Positions 5,362-61,187 of a DNA stretch of 64,000 nt are shown here, one piece after another. The DNA comes from Cephalotus follicularis (taxonomy: Eukaryota > Streptophyta > Magnoliopsida > Oxalidales > Cephalotaceae), in the NCBI GenBank assembly GCA_001972305.1, contig BDDD01002134.1, positions 62,001-126,000 of the forward strand, in the 5' to 3' direction. Position numbers and translations under genes: made by a program. Within the stretch, counting starts at the first letter, position 1; each line of letters opens with the position of its first letter. A model generated the notes under the pieces. It was not told where the DNA came from. It saw only the letters and a list, made by a program, of their open reading frames with translations, and did no database searches.

Positions 5362-6285
5362 TTGGACTTTGATTTTAGCTCAATCCTATCCTTGTTGGCA
5401 CTCTCTTTCTTGGTGTCCTTGTTTTCCACACTTATAGAAAACTCCCTTTCCCAGCAGGCATTCTCCATGATGATTCTTTCCACACTGTTGACAGGGTTTA
5501 TGATCTCTTCCCCCATCATATCTTCCTTTCTTTTTATTATTACTGTCAGAGGATTCACCAGCATTCCTCTTTCCTTATCCTTGATCCGCTCGCTTTTGTT
5601 GATATTTTTTATTATCAACCTCTATTCTCATCGCACATCTCAAGACTGCCTCATAGGTTTGTAGATCTTGTGATATCAACAGTCTTTGAATATGAGGTTT
5701 TAGACCCTGGCAAAACCTACTTGCCTTTCTCTCTTCTGTCGATACGATGTGAGTCACGCATCGAGATAATCTCGCAAAATTTGCCTCGTATTGGGCAACG
5801 GTTTTCGATTCGCCTTGCTCCAGTTGGAGGAAGTCCTCCTCCATCTTATCCTTCATTGCTAGAGAAAAATATTTATCCATGAATATTTTCTTAAACTCCT
5901 CCCATGTCATTGCTTCTATTTCTCGACGTGTCTTCGTCCTCTCGATCATATCCCACCATTGATTTGCCTCTCTGTATAATTTGTATATCGAAAACTCCAC
6001 CTTCTGACAATCTGTACAATCCAGCGCTCTGAAAATCTTTTCGTTTCATTGAATCCATGCTTCAACCTCCATAGTATCTGTTGGTCCCAAAAAAGCTTTC
6101 AGATTATGTCCTACAAATTGTTCTAGGGTTGGCCTTGCTAGCGGAGGTGCTTGATGGTTATTACCGTTGTTATTGGCAATAACTTGAGCCAAACGATTCG
6201 AAACTGCGTTTAGAGAATTATCTTCTCCCTCGTCATGTGTATTTCCATTTCTCATTTGGTTACGATTTCTTCGTAAGTTAGCCAT
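5362..6285 (-). pseudogene. R1 gag
   Basis: It starts at the ATG at 6285, and the first residues match the R5 gag start at 24895. One frame runs from 6285 to 5575 with an in-frame stop near 6046. It carries the capsid-type segment with NQWWDMIERTKTRREIE and AQYEANFARLSR. A frameshift near 5600 puts the nucleocapsid zinc-knuckle region (down to 5322) in other frames. Gag coats the RNA into virus-like particles. Compared with R5 the zinc knuckles are badly damaged. Confidence 0.8.
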
Positions 6286-38388: not shown

Positions 38389-40708
38389 TTTAAGCCTCAG
38401 ATTTTTATATGTACGAAATTGTATGTATTTTGTTTGTACTTATACGGTATTGTATGTATGAATGGCATGGATTGTATATGATATATACTATTTTCACTTT
38501 TATGGCTGTTTACGGGTAGTGGGGGTAAATTGAACCTAAACGCAGTTTTTAAGAATTTTGCCTAAAGGATCCTATATCTATATATAGGCGACTCAGCTCT
38601 TTCTTTTCCCATTTTCATTTCTCGTTCAATTATAGAGAGAGTGTGAGTTAGAGAGAGAAAGTGGGCAGCATCGAGCAAGGAAGGAGTCCTTGGGATTGTG
38701 GCAAAGTGTAGAACCTAAAGGGAGAAGCAGAACGAGGATTCAAATAGCTTATTCTTCGTTCTCTGCAAATATGAGGTAGGTTCTACATATATGCTTTAGA
38801 TCCAGGCTTTTTAAATGGATTGAATGTATTTTATGGTTATGGATAGCTGTATGCATGCTAAATGGATGGACTATGGTATTTATTATGGTTTAAACGGATC
38901 GATATGTCAATCAGAGAGAGAATTGAGGGTTTTAGGTTTATAGGCCAAATCTCTTCTCTCTCTAGATTTACGAATTACGGGTACAGATTTGAAGGGATAA
39001 AGTTGTTTTTAACTTAAAATTGACATTAGGGGCATATAGCTGCCTTTGGATCAAATTTAAACGAATTTAAATGGTTTTAAAATGGATTTTATAGACAGTT
39101 TGATGAATTGCCATTGTCAAACCGTCGACACTTTGGCTATAGCGTCTAAAGCGTTGACACTTTTTGTGTTGCAAAATGACTGACGCTTCGTGCACGCGTT
39201 GATGCTTAAGGGACAAACGCTTTAATCGTCGACGCCTAGTACAAAGGTGTCGATGCTTAGGCACTAACCGTCAACGCTTTTGACAAAGCAGTCGACGCTT
39301 AACGCCCTGTTTCAACTAAACTACACTGTTTTCAACCCCAAATGGTTTTCTCTTCAAATGGATTCCATAAGAAGCCTCCCTAGGGCCTTGTAGCCAATGG
39401 GGATCCTCTTTTATTACCTTTGATTTCCAAATCAACTTTCAAAGTGATTCTTTAAAGAAAAGTTTCAACAAAAGGGTTTTATTCAAATGGTTTTCAAGAA
39501 TGGCTAGGATAGGTCAATTGGGATATCTGGACGCGAATATTCTAGTTGGACTTCCTATCCATAGTTTTAAAAACTCCGATAAGGACCGAGAAAATGGTTA
39601 TGGAAAAACGGTTATGGAAAAGGTTACGGAAAATTGTATTTAAAACGGTTTTGATGGAAGGATCCTATGTGATCCTTTATGGTTAGGTCCCTATCCTTTA
39701 AACAGAAATATCGTTACGGGTTATGGGTATGGTACGGTTATGATTGATGGTTGTTATGGTTGCGACCTAACGGGATAACCCATCCCTAATCTTCATTTCT
39801 GTCATGAAGTATTATAGGTGTAGACCACATATTATGGATATGGAATCCTCCCTTTTAGGGTGAACCTACGGGGATCACAACATTATGGATTGATACAGTA
39901 TGGCACGGATTACAGATATCTCTATTATGGGCTAGTACCTTCGGGACTAGTATTATAGGCTAGTACCTTAGGGACTAGGATTACGGTCCGGTACGGATTA
40001 TGTGTCCAGTGTTATCCTATGCTCCACACGGCTATTGCACAGAGGGTGTATAGACGGTAGAGGTACTATCTCGGGCTAGAGTGGCAGAGAAGTACTTGAA
40101 CATATGGGTTGATTGTCCCCATGGACTATTACATATTGTTTTATGGAGTGTCTGTAGGCGTATGGCCTTTGATGTGATTAGGAATAGTCAAGTATACCAC
40201 CGCTTAGGGACGGTTGGTATACTAAAGCTTTCCACAGTTGGCATTCATGCATATAACATGTCATACATATATACCTATTATATCTGTTGCATTTCATAAC
40301 ATATAGTATAGCCTACAAAGACATTGGTTGCTGACCTATTCTCGTTATGGGTCAGGTACAGGTGAAGCACCGAAGTGATAAGATGGACCAGATCGCATCA
40401 TAGGATTCTTGTAGCAGTATAGTTTTAGCCATCTACCTTGTGTATATGAATTTTGATGTATAAGAGACATACTGCATTTCAGCTATTGACATGCCTGCTT
40501 GTGGTAACGCCTAAGATATATGTATCGAATGTTATGGGTTTGATTGGGCTTATCTCTATGAATATTGAGTTATTATCATGCATATTTTATATTACAGTTT
40601 TAATTTGTAACGTATTTTGGAGTATGATGCAACGTATGTGAAGGATCGTATGGATGAAGCTTCCACATGTCGAGCCTTGGAGTCTTCCTCATGGTACGGG
40701 GTGTTACA
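38389..40708 (+). repeat. R7 5' LTR, 2320 bp
   Basis: The start is blurred (TTTAAGCCTCAGATTTTTAT against TGTAAGACCAGAATTTTTAT in the 3' copy); it ends GGGGTGTTACA. A TATA-like CTATATATAGG lies near 38578, followed by a CT/GA-rich leader. Also present are a TCGACGC array (39115-39305), twin hairpins (39932-39978) and a CTGACC/GGTCAG hairpin (40331-40355). The region 39310-40700 holds no gene. Confidence 0.8.
39932..39978 (+). repeat. Twin hairpins with TTCG and TTAG loops in R7 LTR
   Basis: CTAGTACC-TTCG-GGACTAG (39932-39950) and CTAGTACC-TTAG-GGACTAG (39960-39978), each with one bulged A. The first has a C(UUCG)G tetraloop, known to be unusually stable in RNA. Confidence 0.7.
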
Positions 40709-48340: not shown

Positions 48341-49271
48341 CCAATATGAAAATGGGGATAGCGAAGTATGTTTATGCATACCTAACTTGTCAGCAAGTCA
48401 AGGCAGAACACCGGAGGCCAGCTGGTTTGCTACAGCCATTGCCAGAGGCACAATCGAAATGGGAGCATATCACCATGGATTTTGTGACGGGTTTGCCAGG
48501 GACGAGAGCTAACCATGATGCCATATGGGTTATTGTTGATCACTTCACAAAGTCAACCCATTTTCTAGCGATCAAGATGACTTATTCTCTAAAACGGATA
48601 GCATCTCAGTATGTTGGGTAAATTGTGAAACTCCATGGAGTACCAGTTAGAGTTGTTTCTAATAGAGTCCCACGGTTCACTTCCCGATTTTGGTGAAATT
48701 CTTTTATAATAATAGTTATCATGCTAGCATCGGTATGGCACCGTTTGAGGCCCTTTATGGATGGAAATGTAGGGCTCCAGTCTGTTGGTTTGAGGTAGGC
48801 GAGCAGAATCTCCTAGGACCAAAGCTTGTGCAATCAAGGAAAGGCTTCTAAAGGCTCAGAGTTGGCAGAAGAGTTATGCTGACCATCGACGACGGGATCT
48901 AGAGTTCTCGGTGGGTGATCATGTTTTCCTTAAAGTCTCACCAACTAAAGGAATTATGAAGTTTGGGAAGAAAAGGAAGTTAGCTCCACAGTTTATAGGA
49001 CCTTTTGAGATCCTTGAGATGGTAGGTGCAGTTGCCTACATACGTGCCTTACCTCCCAGTTTGTCAGAGGTGAACAACGTATTTCATGTGTCGATGCTAA
49101 GGAAGTATCACTCGGATCCTTCACATGTATTGTAGTACGAAGCATTGGATCTGATGATGAATATGAGCTTTGAGGAGACACCAGTTCAGATTCTTGACCG
49201 CCGAATCAAACAGCTAAGGAACAAGGATATTGCTTTGGTTAAGGTATTGTGGCAGTATCATGGGCTTGAGG
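48341..49271 (+). pseudogene. R7 integrase, core deletion, split by C2
   Basis: MDFVTGLPGTRANHDAIWVI with VDHF holds the first catalytic Asp. The second site, normally SDRD, reads SNRV. At about 48694 the text jumps from FTSRFW to YNNSYHASIGMAPFEALYGW, removing some 70 residues including the catalytic Glu. The C-terminal domain (48911-49135) has GDHVFLKVSPTKGIMKFGKK and VNNVFHVSMLRKY. It continues to LVKVLWQYHGLE, where C2 is inserted. Confidence 0.85.
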
Positions 49272-51068
49272 TGTTAGAGATGAAGTGTTGCGAGCTAGTG
49301 TCGAGCTTGTATTTACTTTATCTTGATAAACGATTTATAAATTCAGTAAAGATGTTTATGTTTTATCAATGGCTATGAGTTCATTTCATTAATACATGTT
49401 TAATTAATTGTAAATGAATGTCCTGGAATAAAGTTAGAGAACCAAGTTCATGATGAGATCATGATGTGAGAGTTGGAATCTCGGTATACTTTAATTCGAA
49501 TCTTCCTGGTCATAGGATTGACACTCAGGGCATGATCAATCCGGATAGACCAGCATGTACTGTCAGATCGGTAAGCAGAGGGTGCTTGATCTCACACTCA
49601 CTCGCATGGATGATGCTATGACAACTATGTGGCTACTCATTTATTGAGTTCACTGAAGGTAACTGTTGATAGAATATCGGTATGGAGTTTAACTCATATG
49701 TCAGACAGAATTCTAGTTTTACAGCAGTGCATGTGGTCCTTGGACATGAACCGTCACTGGATGTCTTGTGCATAGGGTGTTGTGTTTTGATGATGATTAA
49801 ATACCTATTCTATGAAGTGTATACAGGCATTAGTTAGACATAGTACGCTTATGTATGGAGGCATGTGAACTAGCAACAATGAATCCATTGCTTCTAGTAA
49901 AAGAAGATTATGCTCATGATGATTTTTGTTAGCGATTAAACGCCTGGCCAGGCTACCCACAATATCAAGAGTGTGATATCATTGGTTGAATATTAGAGGG
50001 GCACCTCTAATATTATTTAGCCTAATGAAAGATAGTCACGAGGCTAAATATTAAATTATTGGGGTCTGACATAATCCGTACCCTAGATTTAATTAGAGCA
50101 TTGCCAATGGAGGGACTATACGTCCATGTACCTGTAAAAACTGGTTCGCAAATTATTCATATTACCTGGGGGTCGTTATGCATTGCTAGATGTCAATGTC
50201 AACTAGTAGGATGCCCGAGATTAAATTGATAAATTAATTTTTGAAGAAAAGAATTAAAAGGGTTTTAATTCGAAATATCCAAGAGAATATTTTTATGTGA
50301 TAATAAATATTTAATTGGATAATCATGAGAGTCATGATTTAATCCTACGGCCGGCGTAATAGTGAACCCATAGGGTCACACACAATACGGGCTAATATTT
50401 CCAACACGTGGTGAGAGAAAAATAATTGGGATGTTATTTCCTAATTATATTTGATGAGATTAAATATATAAATATATTTAAATATATTTAAAGAGATTAA
50501 ATATATAAATATAATTAATGAGATTGATCATATTAAAGAACGAAATAAGATTAAAAGGATAGGGATTCCTTTTAAGATAGAGGGCTGGTGGGATTAGGAG
50601 AGTGTGTTTTAATGGGACTTGTCTAGCAGCAAGTTTATAAACCCATCTCTCCATTCACAACTAAGACTTTTGCTCTATTTTGCAAAACCCTAGCCGCCTC
50701 TCTCTTTCTCTCTCTCATACAATCAAGTGTTGATTACTTGCAAAGAAATAGTGTTGGAGATTGAAGCTTGGTGTGGATACCTTGGAGGCTTGCTATACTT
50801 GGAAGCTAGAACCGTTTAATAAGTTGAACAAGTAGCTATGCTTTTGTAAGCAAGAAGACACATAGGAAGAATGAATGAGCCACTCCATTCATGTGAGTAA
50901 TTCTCTCTGCTCCTCCCTATTGATTTATATCTAACTATTTACGTATACTAAGAAGATCCTGGAAATGAACCATATGGCTTGATATTCATGAGATGATAAG
51001 ACAATACATGTTTGAGGGTTATATGCATAAAGATATTTTATTGCCTAAATCGCCATAAGGTTCCAACA
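49272..51068 (+). repeat. C2 5' LTR, 1797 bp
   Basis: TGTTAGAGATGAAG... to ...AAGGTTCCAACA. It closely matches 59419-61182. The TATA position reads TTTATAAA (50634-50641), where the 3' LTR and the internal partial copy have TATATAAA. The CT-rich start region and CAAAACCCTAGCC follow. The part from 50425 is repeated at 52871. Confidence 0.9.
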
Positions 51069-51070
51069 AA

Positions 51071-51083
51071 ATGGTATCAGAGA
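51071..51083 (+). other. C2 primer-binding site (copy 1)
   Basis: ATGGTATCAGAGA, two bases after the LTR end. The duplicate lies at 53517-53529 after the internal partial LTR. Confidence 0.8.
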
Positions 51084-51184
51084 CGGATTTGATTCATATA
51101 TATAGTTAGAAACATGTTTGTTAATTATATGCTTGAATTATTTGGGTTTAACCCGTGTGACGAAAGCATGGGATGCAAATTTGC

Positions 51185-51545
51185 GATTCCCTGTACTCAC
51201 GAAAGCATCCATGCTTTTGAGAAAAGCATCGACGCCTGCATGCGAAACCACTATCAGGAATCGCACGAAGACGCGTAAAGCGTCGACGCCTGCGTGCGAT
51301 ACCACTGCCAGGAAGTGCACGACGACGCGTAAAGCCTCGACGCCTTTGAGAAAATCGTCGACGCATAGGCGCTAAAGCGCTATCGCTTCTGAGAAAAGCG
51401 TCGACGCTAAGGCGCTAAAGCGTCGATGCCTGCCACGTTAATACTACGCCTTCACTTAACGCATAAAGCGTCGGCGCTAACGTAGCTAAAGCGCTAAACG
51501 CATAAGGAAGCGACGCATGAACGTCGACGCTTTTGTATTAAAGCG
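51185..51545. repeat. GCGTCGACGC array in C2 leader (copy 2 at 53631-53991)
   Basis: About a dozen AAAGCGTCGACGC-like units are interspersed with GGCGCTAAAGCGCT palindromes. Translation produces a KASTPACDTT-like repeat in one frame, which I regard as a by-product. Here the array lies in the leader, downstream of the primer site, and not in the LTR as in the gypsy elements. Confidence 0.8.
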
Positions 51546-52088
51546 TCGATGGTTTTGCGTGATTTTGCGGGAAAAGAGTTTTTCCAAATTACCCAATCAA
51601 TTGTCTATATTTTTAGAATTATATCTATCAAGTTTAATTGTTGATTCAATGAGATTGAATATGCAAGATGGTATGGCTATGGACTTGACCTAGTTTGTCT
51701 TATTTAATTAAAGTGTTGAATGTATGGTTTTTATTTTTCATATTTTTGGGTTATAATTTTGAGACTTGCATGTCTCTCTTCTCTATCTTAATTTGTATAT
51801 GCAATAATTCTTCACCCCTTTTAACTCCCCTTGATTTATTTCAAGGTTTCTGTAGTTTATAGTTGGTTTATGTGATTGAAGAGCGAGTGTCACAGTGGAA
51901 GCAAGTTAAGGGAGAACAAAGATATTACAAGACCCATGCATGTATGGGAACGAATGTATGATTGTAATAACATACCTAGGAAAGAGACCAGCAGCTTGTT
52001 TGAGAGTCAAAAAAGTTTCAGTAGTAAAAGTCCATAACCTGCCATTAGATTATACTATGTATGTGATGCATGTCTAAATTTTGCTCTT

Positions 52089-52129
52089 GAGGTTCCAACG
52101 GCCTCCCACTTAGAGGTTCCAACGGCCTC
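52089..52129 (+). repeat. Two identical 17-nt mini-hairpins
   Basis: GAGGTTCCAACGGCCTC at 52089-52105 and again at 52113-52129. The stem GAGGTT/GGCCTC includes two G-U pairs around a CCAAC loop. AGGTTCCAAC is also the LTR terminus. Duplicated at +2446. Confidence 0.6.
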
Positions 52130-52173
52130 TCCATATTATGCCATCTACCTGTAATTTGATTAATACAGGTTTG

Positions 52174-52175
52174 TC

Positions 52176-52212
<37 letters not shown>
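52174..52212 (+). repeat. (AAT)n microsatellite
   Basis: About twelve AAT units; the same tract occurs at 54620-54658 in copy 2. The short Asn-rich and Ile-rich ORFs over it are artefacts. Confidence 0.95.
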
Positions 52213-52215
<3 letters not shown>

Positions 52216-52313
52216 ATTTATATTATTATTCCTCAATTATACCATGAAATCAAGTTAAAGCGAAACAGGCACAGGAGAGTGTTCGGTCGTTGCCTTATGC
52301 CATTACAACTCAT

Positions 52314-52652
52314 ATTGATGCTTTTGGAAATTGTGAGTGTTTTGGCCCCCGTCAAGGCTTACCTTTTCTAGGAACATCTATATGAGTTGAGCATGAGATG
52401 TACTTACAGATGAATTGTGAAAGTGAATGTTTTGGTCCCCGTCAAGATTCACATTCATTGATTCATTGTGTGTAGGATGGTAGGTCAAACTTGACTAGAA
52501 TACAGATGACGTTTTGGCCCCCATCAAGGTCATATGTACACTAGAGGCAAAAGCGAAGATCGGGAATCATGATATTGTATGGTTGGCAAGAGTTTGCCTA
52601 ACTAAAATATTCAGTATAGCGTTTTGGCCCCCGTCAATGTTATACTGAATAT
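52314..52652 (+). repeat. Array of four constant-loop, variable-stem hairpins
   Basis: The loop GTTTTGGCCCCCGTCAAG (18 nt, at most one change per copy) starts at 52339, 52429, 52511 and 52621. Each is flanked by arms complementary to each other but unlike the arms of the other copies. H1 arms: 52314-52338/52357-52381, 16 Watson-Crick and 5 G-U of 25. H2: GTGAAT/ATTCAC plus an outer ATGAAT/ATTCAT. H3: 52495-52510/52529-52544, 13 of 16. H4: 52607-52620/52639-52652, 13 plus one G-U of 14. The second set lies at +2446 (54760-55098). It is in the untranslated leader upstream of gag. Confidence 0.85.
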
Positions 52653-52870
52653 GTTGTAGGACACCGATCCCCACTCGCAAATGAGATCCACGAGACTTGG
52701 ATTGTTGTTTCTCGTCTCCCATAAAATTTGAGGGTTATGGGATTCGCGTAAAATAGTGGGAGCTTGAGAGGAAAAACACCTAAAATATTGAAGATCAAAT
52801 CTTTATGGTTATAAACCTTTAAATTGAATTTATCTGAATATTGACTTTATTTTATATCTGCATAAATCGA

Positions 52871-53514
52871 ATTGGGATGTTATTTCCTAATTATATTTGA
52901 TGAGATTAAATATATAAATATATTTAAATATATTTAAGGAGATTAAATATATAAATATAATTAATAAGATTGATCATATTAAAGAAAGAAATAAGATTAA
53001 AAGGATAGGGATTCCTTTTAAGATAGAGGGCTGGTGGGATTAGGAGAGTGTGTTTTAATGGGACTTGTCTAGCAGCAAGTATATAAACCCATCTCTCCAT
53101 TCACAACTAAGACTTTTGCTCTATTTTGCAAAACCCTAGCCGCCTCTCTCTTTCTCTCTCTCATACAATCAAGTGTTGATTTCTTGCAAAGCAATAGTGT
53201 TGGAGATTGAAGCTTGGTGTGGATACCTTGGAGGCTTGCTATACTTGGAAGCTAGAACCGTTTAATACGTTGAACAAGTAGCTATGCTTTTGTAAGCAAG
53301 AAGACACATAGGAAGAATGAATGAGCCACTCCATTCATGTGAGTAATTCTCTCTGCTCCTCCCTATTGATTTATATCTAACTATTTACGTATACTAAGAA
53401 GATCCTGGAAATGAACCATATGGCTTGATATTCATGAGATGATAAGACAATACATGTTTGAGGGTTATATGCATAAAGATATTTTATTGCCTAAATCGCC
53501 ATAAGGTTCCAACA
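52871..53514 (+). repeat. Internal partial LTR of C2 with intact TATA
   Basis: Copy of the last 644 bp of the LTR, lying inside the leader. It has TATATAAA at 53080-53087, followed by the start region and the terminal AGGTTCCAACA. It could in principle act as an internal promoter. Confidence 0.85.
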
Positions 53515-54621
53515 AAATGGTATCAGAGACGGATTTGATTCATATATATAGTTAGAAACATGTTTGTTAATTATATGCTTGAATTATTTGGGTTTAACCC
53601 GTGTGACGAAAGCATGGGATGCAAATTTGCGATTCCCTGTACTCACGAAAGCATCCATGCTTTTGAGAAAAGCATCGACGCCTGCATGCGAAACCACTAT
53701 CAGGAATCGCACGAAGACGCGTAAAGCGTCGACGCCTGCGTGCGATACCACTGCCAGGAAGTGCACGACGACGCGTAAAGCCTCGACGCCTTTGAGAAAA
53801 TCGTCGACGCATAGGCGCTAAAGCGCTATCGCTTCTGAGAAAAGCGTCGACGCTAAGGCGCTAAAGCGTCGATGCCTGCCACGTTAATACTACGCCTTCA
53901 CTTAACGCATAAAGCGTCGGCGCTAACGTAGCTAAAGCGCTAAACGCATAAGGAAGCGACGCATGAACGTCGACGCTTTTGTATTAAAGCGTCGATGGTT
54001 TTGCGTGATTTTGCGGGAAAAGAGTTTTTCCAAATTACCCAATCAATTGTCTATATTTTTAGAATTATATCTATCAAGTTTAATTGTTGATTCAATGAGA
54101 TTGAATATGCAAGATGGTATGGCTATGGACTTGACCTAGTTTGTCTTATTTAATTAAAGTGTTGAATGTATGGTTTTTATTTTTCATATTTTTGGGTTAT
54201 AATTTTGAGACTTGCATGTCTCTCTTCTCTATCTTAATTTGTATATGCAATAATTCTTCACCCCTTTTAACTCCCCTTGATTTATTTCAAGGTTTCTGTA
54301 GTTTATAGTTGGTTTATGTGATTGAAGAGCGAGTGTCACAGTGGAAGCAAGTTAAGGGAGAACAAAGATATTACAAGACCCATGCATGTATGGGAACGAA
54401 TGTATGATTGTAATAACATACCTAGGAAAGAGACCAGCAGCTTGTTTGAGAGTCAAAAAAGTTTCAGTAGTAAAAGTCCATAACCTGCCATTAGATTATA
54501 CTATGTATGTGATGCATGTCTAAATTTTGCTCTTGAGGTTCCAACGGCCTCCCACTTAGAGGTTCCAACGGCCTCTCCATATTATGCCATCTACCTGTAA
54601 TTTGATTAATACAGGTTTGTC

Positions 54622-54661
<40 letters not shown>

Positions 54662-55316
54662 ATTTATATTATTATTCCTCAATTATACCATGAAATCAAG
54701 TTAAAGCGAAACAGGCACAGGAGAGTGTTCGGTCGTTGCCTTATGCCATTACAACTCATATTGATGCTTTTGGAAATTGTGAGTGTTTTGGCCCCCGTCA
54801 AGGCTTACCTTTTCTAGGAACATCTATATGAGTTGAGCATGAGATGTACTTACAGATGAATTGTGAAAGTGAATGTTTTGGTCCCCGTCAAGATTCACAT
54901 TCATTGATTCATTGTGTGTAGGATGGTAGGTCAAACTTGACTAGAATACAGATGACGTTTTGGCCCCCATCAAGGTCATATGTACACTAGAGGCAAAAGC
55001 GAAGATCGGGAATCATGATATTGTATGGTTGGCAAGAGTTTGCCTAACTAAAATATTCAGTATAGCGTTTTGGCCCCCGTCAATGTTATACTGAATATGT
55101 TGTAGGACACCGATCCCCACTCGCAAATGAGATCCACGAGACTTGGATTGTTGTTTCTCGTCTCCCATAAAATTTGAGGGTTATGGGATTCGCGTAAAAT
55201 AGTGGGAGCTTGAGAGGAAAAACACCTAAAATATTGAAGATCAAATCTTTATGGTTATAAACCTTTAAATTGAATTTATCTGAATATTGACTTTATTTTA
55301 TATCTGCATAAATCGA

Positions 55317-56190
55317 AACCCCTCACTGTAATTCTTGAGAAGAATCAGTTGACAGGTCCAAATTATGTGGACTAGCTATGGAATGTCAAAATAGTTTTTA
55401 ATTCCGAGGACATAGATTATGTCCAAGAGGCCCCAATGCCAGCAATGCCTGCTGAAGATGCCTCAACCGAAGATCATGTCATTTATAAGAAATGGGTGGC
55501 TAATGAAAAGAAAGTCAGAAGCTACCTAATTGCATCGATGAGCAATGCTCTGCAAGTCCAGCATGAATCGATGCGATAGTCTAGGGAAATTCTCCTACAT
55601 CTCCACAAGTTATACAAGGAGACTAGTAGGAATGCTCGGTTCCAACTCACTGATGAGCTGTATGGCACTAAAATGGCTGAAGGATCATCTATTAATGATC
55701 ATGTGCTTAAGATGATCAAAGTGATTGAACGTCTTGCTGCTCTTGCCATCATTTAGGATGCTGAATTAAGCACAGATCTGGTCCTTCACTCACTTCCACC
55801 TTCCTTCAAAGGTTTCATCGCCAATTTTAACATGAATAGGATATCAGCTACTCTGCCTAATCTTCTAAACATGCTGAGAGAAGCCAAAGTGAACATGAAT
55901 AAGGGCAAGGCACCAGTCATGATGGTAGGATCATCCCGTACTCCCAAGAGGAAGGGCAAGTCTAACCTTGAGAAGGGGAAGACTAAAAGTGGGACAATAC
56001 CACCACGACCGACATATTTCAAACCAGCGAAAGCCAAACCACATAATCAGAAAAACCAGCAAGTTGTTGCTGAGACGGACACTGTCGCAAGAGTTGCACC
56101 TACTGAGGAGTCTGCCTCAGAAGATCCTGCTAAGGGACCGTGCTAACACTGTGGTAAGCCAGGAAATTGGAAGAGGATATGTGTGACATT
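55317..56190 (+). pseudogene. C2 gag
   Basis: Text begins without a Met (KPLTVILEKNQLTGPNYVD) right after the duplicated leader. It proceeds through NARFQLTDELYGTKMAEGSS and LVLHSLPPSFKGFIANFNMN to a Lys-rich stretch (55900-56060). The zinc knuckle near 56144 is damaged: stop after the first Cys, and GNWKRIC where GHWKRNC is usual, so the His is lost. In-frame stops lie near 55371, 55577 and 55754. Confidence 0.8.
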
Positions 56191-56760
56191 CCTTAGATAA
56201 ATTGGCAAAGGTATGCCCTATTTGTCTTATATAGAGGTTAGTATGAATATTTCTGATTCATCTTCCTGTATTTTAGACAACGGATGTGGTACTCACATAT
56301 GTTCTAATTTACAGGCCCTCACGGACAGAAGAAACCTTGAGAAGGGTGAGGGAGATAAAAGACTTGCGAATGGATCCATCGTTGAAGCCATAGCCATATG
56401 ATCCGTTTATATTTTGTTCCTTCGGGCCAGAGTTTAGAACTCAAACATTGTGTTTATTCGCCTCACATTTTACCAAATATTATTTCTATTCCAGCATTAT
56501 ATGATGAAGGTTTTCATATTATTTTTAAAGACAAGTGTTGTTCTATTTTATTTAATATTACGATTTATGAAAAATATTGCCTTCATGATGCATTATATAT
56601 ATTGAGTAAACATGAGACTGTTTTCAATATGCAAAAAGACAATAAAATAAAGAGAGATGAAGTTAATCAATCCTACGTATGGCATTCCATACTTGCTCAT
56701 ATAAGTGAGAAAAGAGTCTGCAGGTTAATCTCGGATGGATACTTTTATTTTTCAACGTAT
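56191..56760 (+). pseudogene. C2 aspartic protease and integrase zinc finger
   Basis: ISDSSSCILDNGCGTHICSN is the copia active-site region, with the catalytic D-S-G read as D-N-G. A frameshift near 56395 moves to frame 56398-56763. This frame includes the HHCC integrase finger start (WHSILAHISEKRVCRLISDG), followed by CEPCLKGK after a stop at 56761. Confidence 0.75.
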
Positions 56761-57480
56761 TAACAGCTTCCAACTTGTGAACCATGTCTCAAAGGAAAAA
56801 TTACCAAATCTTCCTTCACATGGAAAGGGGAAAGGTCCCCAGAACTGCTAGGTCTAGTACATACTAATGTATGTGGACCAATGACAGTTGATGCCAGAGG
56901 TGGATATTAGTACTTCATAACGTTTACGGAGGATCATTCTCGTTTCGGTTATTTATACCTTATGCGGCACAAATATGAAGCCTTTGAAAAGTTCAAAGAA
57001 TTCAAACATGGAGTAGAGAAACAGACTAGTAAAAGTCTGAAAACTCTTCGATCAGATCGAGGTCTTGAGTATCTTTCCATCGAGTTTTTAACTTATCTAA
57101 AAGAAAATGGGATTATCTCTCAGTCGACGCCTCCGGGAAAACCACAGCATAATGGTGTGTCTGAAAGGAGGAATCGCACTTTGCTTGACATTGTACGTAG
57201 CATGATGAGAGATGATGGACTTCCACTATCTTTATGGGGTTATGCTTTAGAGACTGATGTTCTCTTATAGAAGAGGACTCCAATGAAATCTGCTCCCAAT
57301 ACCCCATATGAGATATGCAATGGGAAGAAACCCAATCTTAGTTATCTAAGAATATGGGGCTGCCCTGCATATGTTAAGCAGGCAGCAGTAGATAAATTAG
57401 AATCTAGGTTCATCAAATGTAAACTTGTGGGATAACCTAAAGAAACACGAGGATATGACTTCTATTATCCACCTGACAAC
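56761..57480 (+). pseudogene. C2 integrase
   Basis: Same frame as the RT downstream. The first catalytic site reads LVHTNVCGPM, where HTDVCGP is usual, so Asp is replaced by Asn. The second (LRSDRGLEYL) and the Glu (NGVSERRNRTLLD) are kept. Stops occur near 56908, 57270 and 57433. The text GWxPKETRGYDFYYPPDNKV marks the C-terminal part. Confidence 0.8.
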
Positions 57481-57483
57481 AAA

Positions 57484-58755
57484 GTGTTGGTATCCAGGCA
57501 TGCTACTTTACTTGAGAGGGACTTCATGTTGAAAGACAATAGTGGGAGTATGATAGAATTAGATGAACGATCTAAAGAACCAAAAGTTGAGTACCTATCC
57601 AATCCTGTTCAAATTGATGTTCCTGAAATGTCAGCTACCACAGATACACAACCTCTGCGTAGAACTACCCGATTACCCAGGGTACCTGAGAGATACTATT
57701 GTAGTTTTCTCATTGAAGGTACCCAGGAGGTAAATTTCATTAATGATGATCCGGTAAGCTACAAAGAAGCCTTATGCGATGTGGACTTGGAGAAATGGCT
57801 CAAAGCCATGAATTCCGAAATGGAATCCAATTACTATAATCAAGTTTGGAATCTAGTGGATGCACCCGAAGGGGTTAAACCCTTAAGTTACAAATGGATT
57901 TTCAAAAGAAAACTTGGAGACGATGGAATGGTGAAGACCTTAAAAGCTAGGCTCGTAGCCAAAGGTTACAATCAATAGGAAGGGATTGATTATAAGGAAA
58001 CTTTCTCTCCTGTAGCCATGCTTAAATACATTCGGGATTTACTTGATATAGCTGCACATTTTGACTATTAAATATGGCAAATGGATGTGAAAACTACTTT
58101 TCTCAATGGAAACATTGATGAAGACATATATATGACTCAACCTGAGGGTTTCATATGCACTGCTGAGAACCAGAAAGTGTGCAAGCTTCAGACGTCCATT
58201 TATGGACTAAAGCAAGCTTCGAGAAGTTGGAACATCCGATTCGATGAGAGAATCAAAGAGTTTGATTTAATTAAGAATCGAGATGAACCATGTGTGTATA
58301 AAAAGGTTAGTGGGAGCTCTGTGACTTTCCTAGTTTTGTACGTTGACGGCATACGCCTTATAGGAAATGATGTGATCATGTTGTCAAACGTAAAGGCCTG
58401 GTTATCTATAGTTTTCTCCATGAAAGACTTTGGAGAAGCTTCCTATATCTTTTGAATAAAGGTTTATAGAAATAGATCAAAAAGGATGATAGGGTTATCC
58501 CATTCTTTGTACATTGACAGAGTGCTCAAGGGGTTTAGCATGGAAAATTCCAAGAGAGGTTACCTACCTCTATGTCATGGGATTTCACTTTCTAAGGAAA
58601 TGTCTCCTAAGACAGCTGAAGAAAAACAAAGGATGATGCACATTCCATATGCTTCAGCAATTCGAAGCTTTGTAGGGAAATGTCTCCTAAGACAACTGAA
58701 GAAAAACAAAGGATGATGCACATTCCATATGCTTCAGCAATTCGAAGCGTCATGT
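57484..58755 (+). pseudogene. C2 reverse transcriptase
   Basis: One frame, four stops. ALCDVDLEKWLKAMNSEMES, YKWIFKRKLGDDGMVKT and ARLVAKGYNQ open the domain; QMDVKTTFLNGNIDEDIYM and SIYGLKQASRSWNIRFDE follow. The catalytic Tyr-Val-Asp-Asp reads YVDG (58339-58350), so the second Asp is lost. A direct 80-bp tandem duplication at about 58597-58756 then shifts the frame. Confidence 0.85.
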
Positions 58756-59418: not shown

Positions 59419-61182
59419 TGTTAGAGATGAAGTGTTGCGACCCAGTGTCGAGCTTGTATTTACTTTATCTTGATAAACTATTTATAAATTCAGTAAAGAT
59501 GTTTATGTTTTATCAATGGCTAAGAGTTCGTTTCATTAATACATGTTTAATTAATTATAAATGAATGTCTTGGAATAAAGTTAGAGAACCAAGTTCATGA
59601 TGAGATCATGATGTGAGAGTTTGAATCTCGGTATGCTTTATTTCGAATCTTCCTGGTCATAGAATTGACACTCAGGGCATGATCAATATGGATAGACCAG
59701 CACGTACTGTCAGATCAGTAAGCAGAGGGTGACCAATCTCACACTCCCTCGCATGGATGATGCTATGACAGCTATGTGGTGCTCATTTATTGAGTTCACT
59801 GTAGGTGAGTGTTGATAGAATATATGTATGGAGTTTTACTTAGTTTTATGGCAGTGAATGTGGTCCTGGGACATGAGCCGTCACTAGATATCTTGTGCAT
59901 AGGGTGTTGTCTTTTGATGATGCTTAAATACATATTCTATGAAGTGTACACATGCATTAGTTTTACATAGTACGCTTATATATAGAGGGATGTGAACTAG
60001 CAACAATGAATACATTGCTACTAGTAAAAGAAGATTATGCTCATGATGAATTTCCTTTGCGATTAAACGCCTGGCCAGGCTAGCCACGATATCAAGAGTG
60101 TGATATTATTGGTTGAATATTAGAGGGACACCTCTAATATTATTTAGGCTAATGAAAGATAGTCGCGAGGCTAGAGATTAAATTATTGGGGTCTGGCGTA
60201 ATCCGCACCCTAGATTAAATTAGAGCATTGTTAATGGAGAGACTATACGTGCATGTACCTGTTAAAAGTGGTTCACAAATTATTCATATAACATGGGGAA
60301 GTCGATGTTGACTAGTATGAAGCCCGAGATTAAATTAATAAATTAATTTTAGAATAAAAGAATTAAAAGAGTTTTATTTCTAAATGTCCAAGAGAATATT
60401 TATTATGTGATAATAAATATTTAATTGGATAATCATGAGTGTCATCATTTAATCTTACTGCAAGCTTAAAAGTGAACCCATAGGGTCACACACAATACGG
60501 GATAATATTTCCAACACGTGATGAGAGAAAAATAATTGGGATGTTATTTCCTAATTATATTTGATGAGATTAAATATATAAATATATTTAAATATATTTA
60601 AGGAGATTAAATATATAAATATAATTAATGAGATTGATCATATTAAAGAAAGAAAGAAGATTAAAAGGATAGGGATTCCTTTTAAGATAGAGGGCTGGTG
60701 GGATTAGGAGAGCGTGTTTTAATAGGACTTGTCTAGCAGCAAGTATATAAACACTTCTCCCCATTCAAAACTAAGACTTTTGCTCTATTTTGCAAAACCC
60801 TAGCCGCATCTCTCTTTCTCTCTCTCATACAATCAAGTGTTGATTGCTTGCAAAGCAATAGTATTGGTGATTGAAGCTTGGTGTTGATACCGTGGAGGCT
60901 TTCTATAGTTGGAAGCTATAACTGTTTAATACTTTCGACAAGTAACTGTGCTTTTGGAAGCAAGAAGACACATAAGAAGAAGGAAGGAGCTGCTCCATTC
61001 ATGTGAGTAATTTCGCCTGCTCCTCCCTATTGATATATATATATATAACTATATACATATGCTCAAAAGATCCTGGAAACGTACCATATGGCTTGATATT
61101 CACGAGATGATAACACAATATATGTTTTAGGGTTATATGAATATAGATATTTTAGTCACTAAATCGCCATAAGGTTCCAACA
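59419..61182 (+). repeat. C2 3' LTR, 1764 bp
   Basis: TGTTAGAGATGAAG... to ...AAGGTTCCAACA. It has TATATAAA at 60744-60751. A short TATATATATATAT run lies at 61033-61046 where the 5' LTR has TTATATCTAACT. No gene is contained; the ORF at 59884-60087 is LTR sequence. Confidence 0.9.
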
Positions 61183-61187
61183 CGAGG

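Follow-up and report, generated by a model that had tools for sequence, protein, structure and literature searches.

The host copia element and its duplicated leader

The window analysed in this study, a stretch of 64,000 nucleotides from Cephalotus follicularis, contains the following element:

49272..51068, + strand: 5' LTR of ~1.8 kb, 89.3% identical to the 3' LTR, starting with TGTTAG and terminating with CCAACA
51072..51082, + strand: primer binding site motif TGGTATCAGAG, an exact match
51083..52864, + strand: untranslated leader of the first unit, ~1.8 kb, with 48 ATGs
52870..55316, + strand: second tandem unit, comprising the last 645 bp of the LTR, the primer site, the leader and an identical hairpin array
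55317..56200, + strand: gag-like region, broken by stops and assigned by eye
56386..58455, + strand: stop-interrupted pol pieces in copia order (pre-integrase, integrase core, RVT_2 reverse transcriptase)
59419..61182, + strand: 3' LTR, K2P distance to the 5' LTR 0.091 over 1,760 sites

The two LTRs form a TG...CA pair, the primer site lies beside the 5' LTR and RVT_2 lies 3' of the integrase, which are features of Ty1/copia LTR retrotransposons, and the host element is an old, broken copia retrotransposon. The motif TGGTATCAGAG is presumably complementary to initiator tRNA-Met. In the Pfam scan, PF07727 (RVT_2) exceeded its cut-off of 31.6 in the two pieces 57436-57975 (36.7 bits) and 58072-58452 (111.8 bits), and the pol matches to PF13976, PF00665 and PF13683 stayed below the curated cut-offs, with rve (PF00665) reaching 26.4 bits against a cut-off of 32.6 in the piece 56911-57267. 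No Pfam match was obtained for two of the six pieces scanned, and the single gag-like piece scanned (55757-56143) had none. The gag-like frame begins, by eye, at ~55310-55317, 3' of the second tandem unit, and the first-unit leader (51083..52864) holds no open reading frame of at least 120 amino acids. The bases flanking the LTRs, TGAGG (49267-49271) and CGAGG (61183-61187), agree by eye at four of five positions and are possibly a decayed target-site duplication. Two further repeats were observed in the leader, namely GTCGACGC / GCGTCGAC-type repeats at 51190-51560, shortly 3' of the primer site, and GAGGTTCCAACGGCCTC, present as two identical 17-nt copies at 52089-52129, 24 nt apart, each of which allows a 4-bp hairpin by eye. 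The latter contains GGTTCCAAC, which is also present at the LTR 3' end (GGTTCCAACA).

The LTR end, primer site and leader occur twice, as a head-to-tail repeat of 2,447 bp (50424-52870 and 52870-55316) with 99.7% identity. The two units differ at seven sites, every one in the LTR part; all of them fall within the first 399 bp and none in the other 2,048 bp (p ~3e-6 if differences were uniform). At five of these seven sites the second unit matches the 3' LTR, and at one the first unit does. It is possible that the leader was converted recently or that assembly produced the clustering. The second array lies as follows:

54752..55105, + strand: second four-hairpin array, with motifs at 54785, 54875, 54957 and 55067, ~205 nt 5' of the gag-like frame

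No difference between the units was found in the 641 bp round the array, and the second array is therefore not independent evidence. The initial annotation had placed the first array in the untranslated leader, 3' of the primer site and 5' of gag; this is correct, and on the way to gag the LTR end, primer site and leader of the second unit follow. Between the first array and its own primer site there are 1.27 kb, a distance that exceeds that in most retroviruses.

Four hairpins with a constant motif

The first array consists of the following hairpins:

52306..52389, + strand: hairpin 1, motif at 52339-52356, 29 arm pairs, z -6.5
52405..52472, + strand: hairpin 2, motif at 52429-52446, 23 arm pairs, z -3.4
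52495..52544, + strand: hairpin 3, motif at 52511-52528, 13 arm pairs, z -1.2, alone not significant
52602..52659, + strand: hairpin 4, motif at 52621-52638, 17 arm pairs of which 14 are contiguous, z -6.0

Each hairpin carries the 18-nt motif GTTTTGGYCCCCRTCAAK with no mismatch to the consensus (as RNA, GUUUUGGYCCCCRUCAAK), and 15 of the 18 positions are invariant. The spacings are 90, 82 and 110 nt, which bears out the four copies at 80-110 bp first reported here; the observation is confirmed. The array had been assigned a start at 52314, but it begins closer to 52306, the first position of the hairpin 1 outer stem. Four further exact copies lie 2,446 bp downstream at 54785, 54875, 54957 and 55067, so the window holds eight in total, all on the + strand, because 50424-52870 is repeated at 52870-55316. 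When up to three mismatches were allowed, chance matches averaged 0.19, and none of 100 shuffles gave eight. The spacings equal 0, 1 and 2 modulo 3, which indicates that the array is not a coding repeat. The detected repeat measures 33 nt overall and stops within ~9 nt of the motif. A fifth, different short hairpin, GGTTGGCAAGAGTTTGCCTAAC, was seen in the region fold at 52581-52602, between hairpins 3 and 4.

The inner stems of all four copies were predicted with pairing probabilities of 0.93-1.0 in contexts of 471, 871, 1788 and 2201 nt. Within the motif, G6 and G7 were predicted to be paired in every copy (unpaired probability 0.0-0.2), and C9 and C10 were the sole positions predicted to be unpaired in all four, both in the 471- and 1788-nt contexts. 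Two apical folds were obtained: in fold A, six apical pairs enclose a CCCC loop and 2 of 24 apical cells fail to pair, and fold B, found by RNAalifold, has five apical pairs and a YCC loop and is kept in 20 of 20 cells. Single-copy folds use both. Because the apical pairs hardly vary, covariation says little about them. The motif had been described as a constant loop; its sequence is constant, but with the GG paired it is not open, and it is better read as a predicted constant apical stem-loop that displays Cs.

Pairing of the arms compared with chance

In every copy the motif is flanked by complementary arms particular to that copy, as the initial annotation had claimed: arms with their own partners total -80.8 kcal/mol, the best among 24 pairings, with the runner-up at -65.6. 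The contiguous pairs flanking the motif number 6, 6, 5 and 14 in copies 1-4, respectively. Among 63,920 places of the same geometry in the window, a count that takes in the array copies themselves, 610 reach 5 pairs, 260 reach 6 and 3 reach 14. In ungapped frames, at least as many pairs occur at 2 of 63,916, 23 of 63,958, 73 of 63,950 and 5 of 63,952 places for copies 1-4, where the counts again include the array copies and the arm lengths were picked after inspection of the sequence. Equally stable arms were found at 3, 35, 326 and 18 of 3,000 random places per copy (copies 1-4). For hairpin 3, 21 of 200 shuffles folded equally well, and this copy alone is unremarkable and not significant.

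Repeated sequences elsewhere in the window were also considered. Those 18-mers of which at least three spaced copies lie nearby begin at 102 positions (overlapping positions counted apart), and at four of them at least five flanking pairs were present in at least three copies; without exception these four belonged to the array or to its duplicate. When the scan was loosened to any two similar loops of 10-22 nt on stems of at least 5 pairs, it gave 41 rows on the + strand and 44 on the - strand before near-identical stems and simple loops were dropped. Among the filtered rows listed, the 23 on the + strand comprised 18 from the array or its duplicate and 5 others with loops of 10-12 nt, and the 11 on the - strand comprised 2 from the array or its duplicate and 9 others. 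Each of these other rows had only two copies, with a loop of 10-14 nt. The 471-nt region as a whole folded with a z of -4.6. The leader is also structured elsewhere, as 12 of 74 folding windows on the + strand had z below -2.5 and just 3 of these start inside the array; the mean z on the + strand was -1.5 in the array versus -0.6 elsewhere, and on the - strand -0.5 versus -0.7.

Compensation between copies and strand preference

Over 30 columns round the motif in the four copies, standard pairing holds in 23 of 24 cells of the inner six pairs, and each of these pairs has changed on both sides in one copy or more. RNAalifold recovered the same outer six pairs unprompted. The covariation score was matched by 2 of 500 shuffles for fold B and 3 of 500 for fold A, and the number of doubly changed pairs by 10 of 500 and 36 of 500, respectively, in a control that is modest with four sequences only. 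When partners were slid, 37.5-56.3% of cells paired, versus 97.7% unslid (fold B). This covariation compares four paralogues in one array of one element, not orthologues.

The arms had been said to be unlike between copies. This holds for four of the copy pairs, with an inner arm identity of 10-33%, but not for copies 1 and 2 (8 of 12 bases) or copies 3 and 4 (7 of 10). Copies 1 and 2 are separated by one both-side change together with exchanges between G-U and Watson-Crick pairs, and every pair is kept. In 152 arm bases, 9 mismatches were observed and ~7 changes are predicted from the LTR divergence of 0.091, so the stems were probably nearly perfect at insertion.

The hairpins fold more stably on the + than on the - strand in copy 1 (-36.7 versus -26.3 kcal/mol), copy 2 (-20.5 versus -13.9) and copy 4 (-22.8 versus -12.1). 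Copy 3 is level (-16.7 versus -16.8), with a slightly better z on the + strand. The z values on the - strand were -3.6, -1.8, -0.75 and -2.4 for copies 1-4. In the predicted folds, G-U accounts for 10 of 82 arm pairs. The initial annotation had taken G-U pairs as favouring an RNA role, and in the ungapped arms G-U does exceed A-C by 7 to 2, a difference that is suggestive only (one-sided p 0.09). The strand asymmetry of three of the four copies and the G-U counts favour an RNA role, though they do not prove it. The longest + strand complement to the loop within the transcript, 10 nt with 5 G-C, was obtained without a shuffle control and is not relied on. These compensated pairs, the cognate pairing of the arms, the asymmetry between strands and the leader position support the earlier proposal of selection on RNA structure.

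Sequence searches

Within the window, a search with the leader, for which the first part of the element was masked, gave 31 matches up to E 10, one of them below 0.01. That match concerned GTCGACGC-type repeats (51325-51408 against 39217-39299, 71%, E 5e-5), and the sole match inside the array had an E of 4.1. A covariance model built on the inner parts of the four hairpins found 20 matches up to E 10 in the window; 8 of these are the array copies, and the strongest of the remaining 12 has an E of 0.17. In Rfam 15, no family reached its gathering threshold in 50000-57000 or in 52290-52670, where only sub-threshold matches occurred.

Several candidate relatives were examined and rejected. The exact motif was present in four stretches of viral contigs, which are two sequences found twice each, and none of the arms flanking the motif pair, pointing to chance. 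The pattern of two motifs with 62-92 nt between them had no match in viral contigs. In prokaryote genomes it had one match, a GC-rich bacterial tandem repeat of ~107 bp with near-identical copies by eye, which was judged unrelated. This repeat, at 5372-5675 of the bacterial MAG contig L006, holds TTTTGGTCCCCCTCAA twice and a shorter form in the third copy. The reverse transcriptase piece gave three pattern matches in viral contigs, and at the one locus confirmed, 20 residues aligned at 55%, which is too distant. The complement of the motif holds TTGACGGGGGCC, and the literature matches to this string include many on bacteria. We take TTGACGGGGGCC to be part of a conserved 16S rRNA stretch that overlaps a universal 16S primer site. 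Eukaryotic 18S shares just ~7-8 nt at that site. The likeness of the motif to 16S rRNA is probably a coincidence.

Possible function of the array

The motif, the predicted stems, the compensation between the four copies and the place in the leader are shown, whereas a protein reader, Gag as that reader and packaging as the purpose are inferred; the structure stands on much firmer ground than the function. The array may act as a multivalent cis-acting element of the full-length RNA, in which a constant apical motif would be held out on four separate stems with its Cs exposed. The stems would need only to pair, and their sequence could drift with compensation; the tip would be conserved through being read by one protein. 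The combination of a constant tip and stems that need only pair is what suggests a protein reading of the tip. The reader would most likely be the element's own Gag, and the genomic RNA would in this way be singled out for packaging into virus-like particles and not for translation. We tentatively prefer this reading, that of protein-binding hairpins in the full-length RNA which are most likely packaging sites recognised by Gag.

For packaging speak the leader position 3' of the primer site and the second array ~205 nt 5' of gag. Previous studies have illustrated that the packaging signal of Cauliflower mosaic virus is exposed on a leader stem-loop and bound by coat protein (PMC5902531), and that the major packaging and dimerisation signals of Ty1 lie no more than ~500 nt from the 5' end (PMC4974528). 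The plant copia element BARE2 has been said to carry conserved dimerisation and packaging signals (PMC3735527). By position and architecture only, the array would fit a packaging signal (psi). Retroviral nucleocapsids, however, are not best known for binding exposed Cs; the exposed Cs therefore favour a host poly(C)-binding protein over Gag, and this counts against the packaging reading. The same holds for the 1.27 kb between the first array and its primer site, for the structure seen elsewhere in the leader, for copy 3, which is not significant alone, for the G-U excess, which is suggestive only, and for the modest shuffle control, in which the copies of one independent array are compared with one another.

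Since the exposed bases are C, the main rival is that the tip is read by a host protein, most plausibly of the KH-type poly(C)-binding class, and that the array controls translation, stability or export. It agrees with the prediction that two Cs of the C-run are the sole positions unpaired in all copies. Structured leaders also serve shunting or export in plant pararetroviruses (PMC5902531, PMC12786077). Furthermore, the 1.8-kb leader contains 48 ATGs, so gag needs a way past them. Such binding is putative, however, and stable hairpins near a start codon are generally expected to hinder scanning. We regard a host reader with one of these roles as rather unlikely, though worth serious consideration.

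The array could also have no function, in which case hairpins round a recurring 18-mer would have arisen in reverse transcription, through duplication or through template switching with fold-back, and would now be decaying. It is general knowledge that template switching can yield near-perfect stems, the unit duplication marks the locus as rearrangement-prone, the G-U over A-C excess is weak, and the likeness of the inner arms of copies 1-2 and 3-4 fits some past duplication. However, the tip is kept at 15 of 18 positions although the repeat, 33 nt overall, stops within ~9 nt; the inner arms of copies 1 and 2 are identical at 8 of 12 bases and yet their changes preserve every pair; in three of four copies it is the sense strand that gives the more stable fold; and among the 102 repeated 18-mer start positions, none outside the array or its duplicate shows such arms. 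An origin of this kind without function is judged unlikely.

Dimerisation, in which the loops of two genomic RNAs would kiss via GGCC, was part of the first interpretation. The observation behind it was right, as three of the four loops do contain GGCC, and paired GACG-loop hairpins of gammaretroviruses do make loop-loop contacts (PMC5874298). Copy 2, however, has GGUC, and G6 and G7 are predicted to be paired (unpaired probability 0.0-0.2), so that an exposed self-complementary loop in every copy, as a dimer initiation site has, is not predicted. Dimerisation is therefore poorly supported and improbable, and of the first interpretation it is the selection on RNA structure in a copia leader that stands. 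Finally, small-RNA or microRNA precursors are very improbable. In their favour, the hairpins are long and a weak sub-threshold miRNA model match exists, but the best Rfam match in the array has 17.1 bits versus a gathering score of 67 (E 2.8), and it is the tip that is conserved here, whereas microRNA precursors conserve the stem.

Packaging by a protein reader of the tip remains our preferred reading. Conceivably, and with still more reserve, a plant copia lineage possesses a multivalent packaging code, made up of several separate hairpins with one strictly conserved C-rich tip on stems that drift freely; Gag, or a poly(C)-binding protein captured from the host, would read it and so sort genomic from translated RNA. 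Little seems to be known of how plant LTR retrotransposons select their own RNA for encapsidation. Host factors in their life cycle are the subject of a 2025 review, which deals with RNA pools and granules (PMC12786077), and the sole structured leader named in its passages on packaging and leaders is pararetroviral and used for export (PMC12786077); in its searchable text, the terms 'stem-loop' and 'secondary structure' were not found. An array of ~350 nt with a strict motif and stems of dispensable sequence is a directly testable candidate, in which the motif predicts the important bases and the stems predict the unimportant ones.

Comparison with known systems

The statement in the initial annotation that no family of this design has been described went too far, as leader hairpins with constant loops are known in gammaretroviruses (PMC5874298) and coronaviruses (PMC7925004). 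The gammaretroviral SL-C and SL-D, two hairpins of the dimer linkage region, resemble the array in that both carry the same GACG loop and are part of an LTR element's leader (PMC5874298). They have two copies and a 4-nt loop, whereas the array has four copies of an unrelated 18-nt motif, farther from the primer site; its exposed tip is CCCC or YCC, not a GACG apical tetraloop. In coronavirus SL5, identical UUYCGU loops are repeated on hairpins of the 5' leader, and SL5 has been proposed as a packaging signal since such signals usually involve repeated elements, a proposal unvalidated by reverse genetics (PMC7925004). SL5, from an unrelated virus, has 6-nt loops on branches of one domain, whereas the hairpins of the array are separate, 82-110 nt apart, and each folds alone; UUYCGU is absent from the four tips.

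Iron-responsive elements share with the array a conserved tip that is borne on a hairpin and read by one protein (PMC8466369). Unlike the array, they have a different motif and belong to cellular mRNAs, and they were not among the three Rfam matches up to E 10 in 52290-52670. The transferrin receptor mRNA carries tandem iron-responsive elements. The packaging signals in the assembly of single-stranded RNA viruses are likewise several stem-loops with a common loop motif read by coat protein (PMC7612645, PMC6281560); these are dispersed over the genome with short motifs, whereas the array is clustered with a long, strict motif. The Cauliflower mosaic virus leader comes from a plant reverse-transcribing element and also presents a coat-protein-bound signal on a stem-loop (PMC5902531), but it has one signal on one large stem (purine-rich for the related RTBV, by analogy), whereas the array has four C-rich copies. 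A limited literature search, which reached few subscription journals and is weak evidence of absence, did not find a repeated hairpin array in a plant LTR retrotransposon. The class of design is known elsewhere, and in a plant LTR retrotransposon this array would, if true, be the first described to our knowledge.
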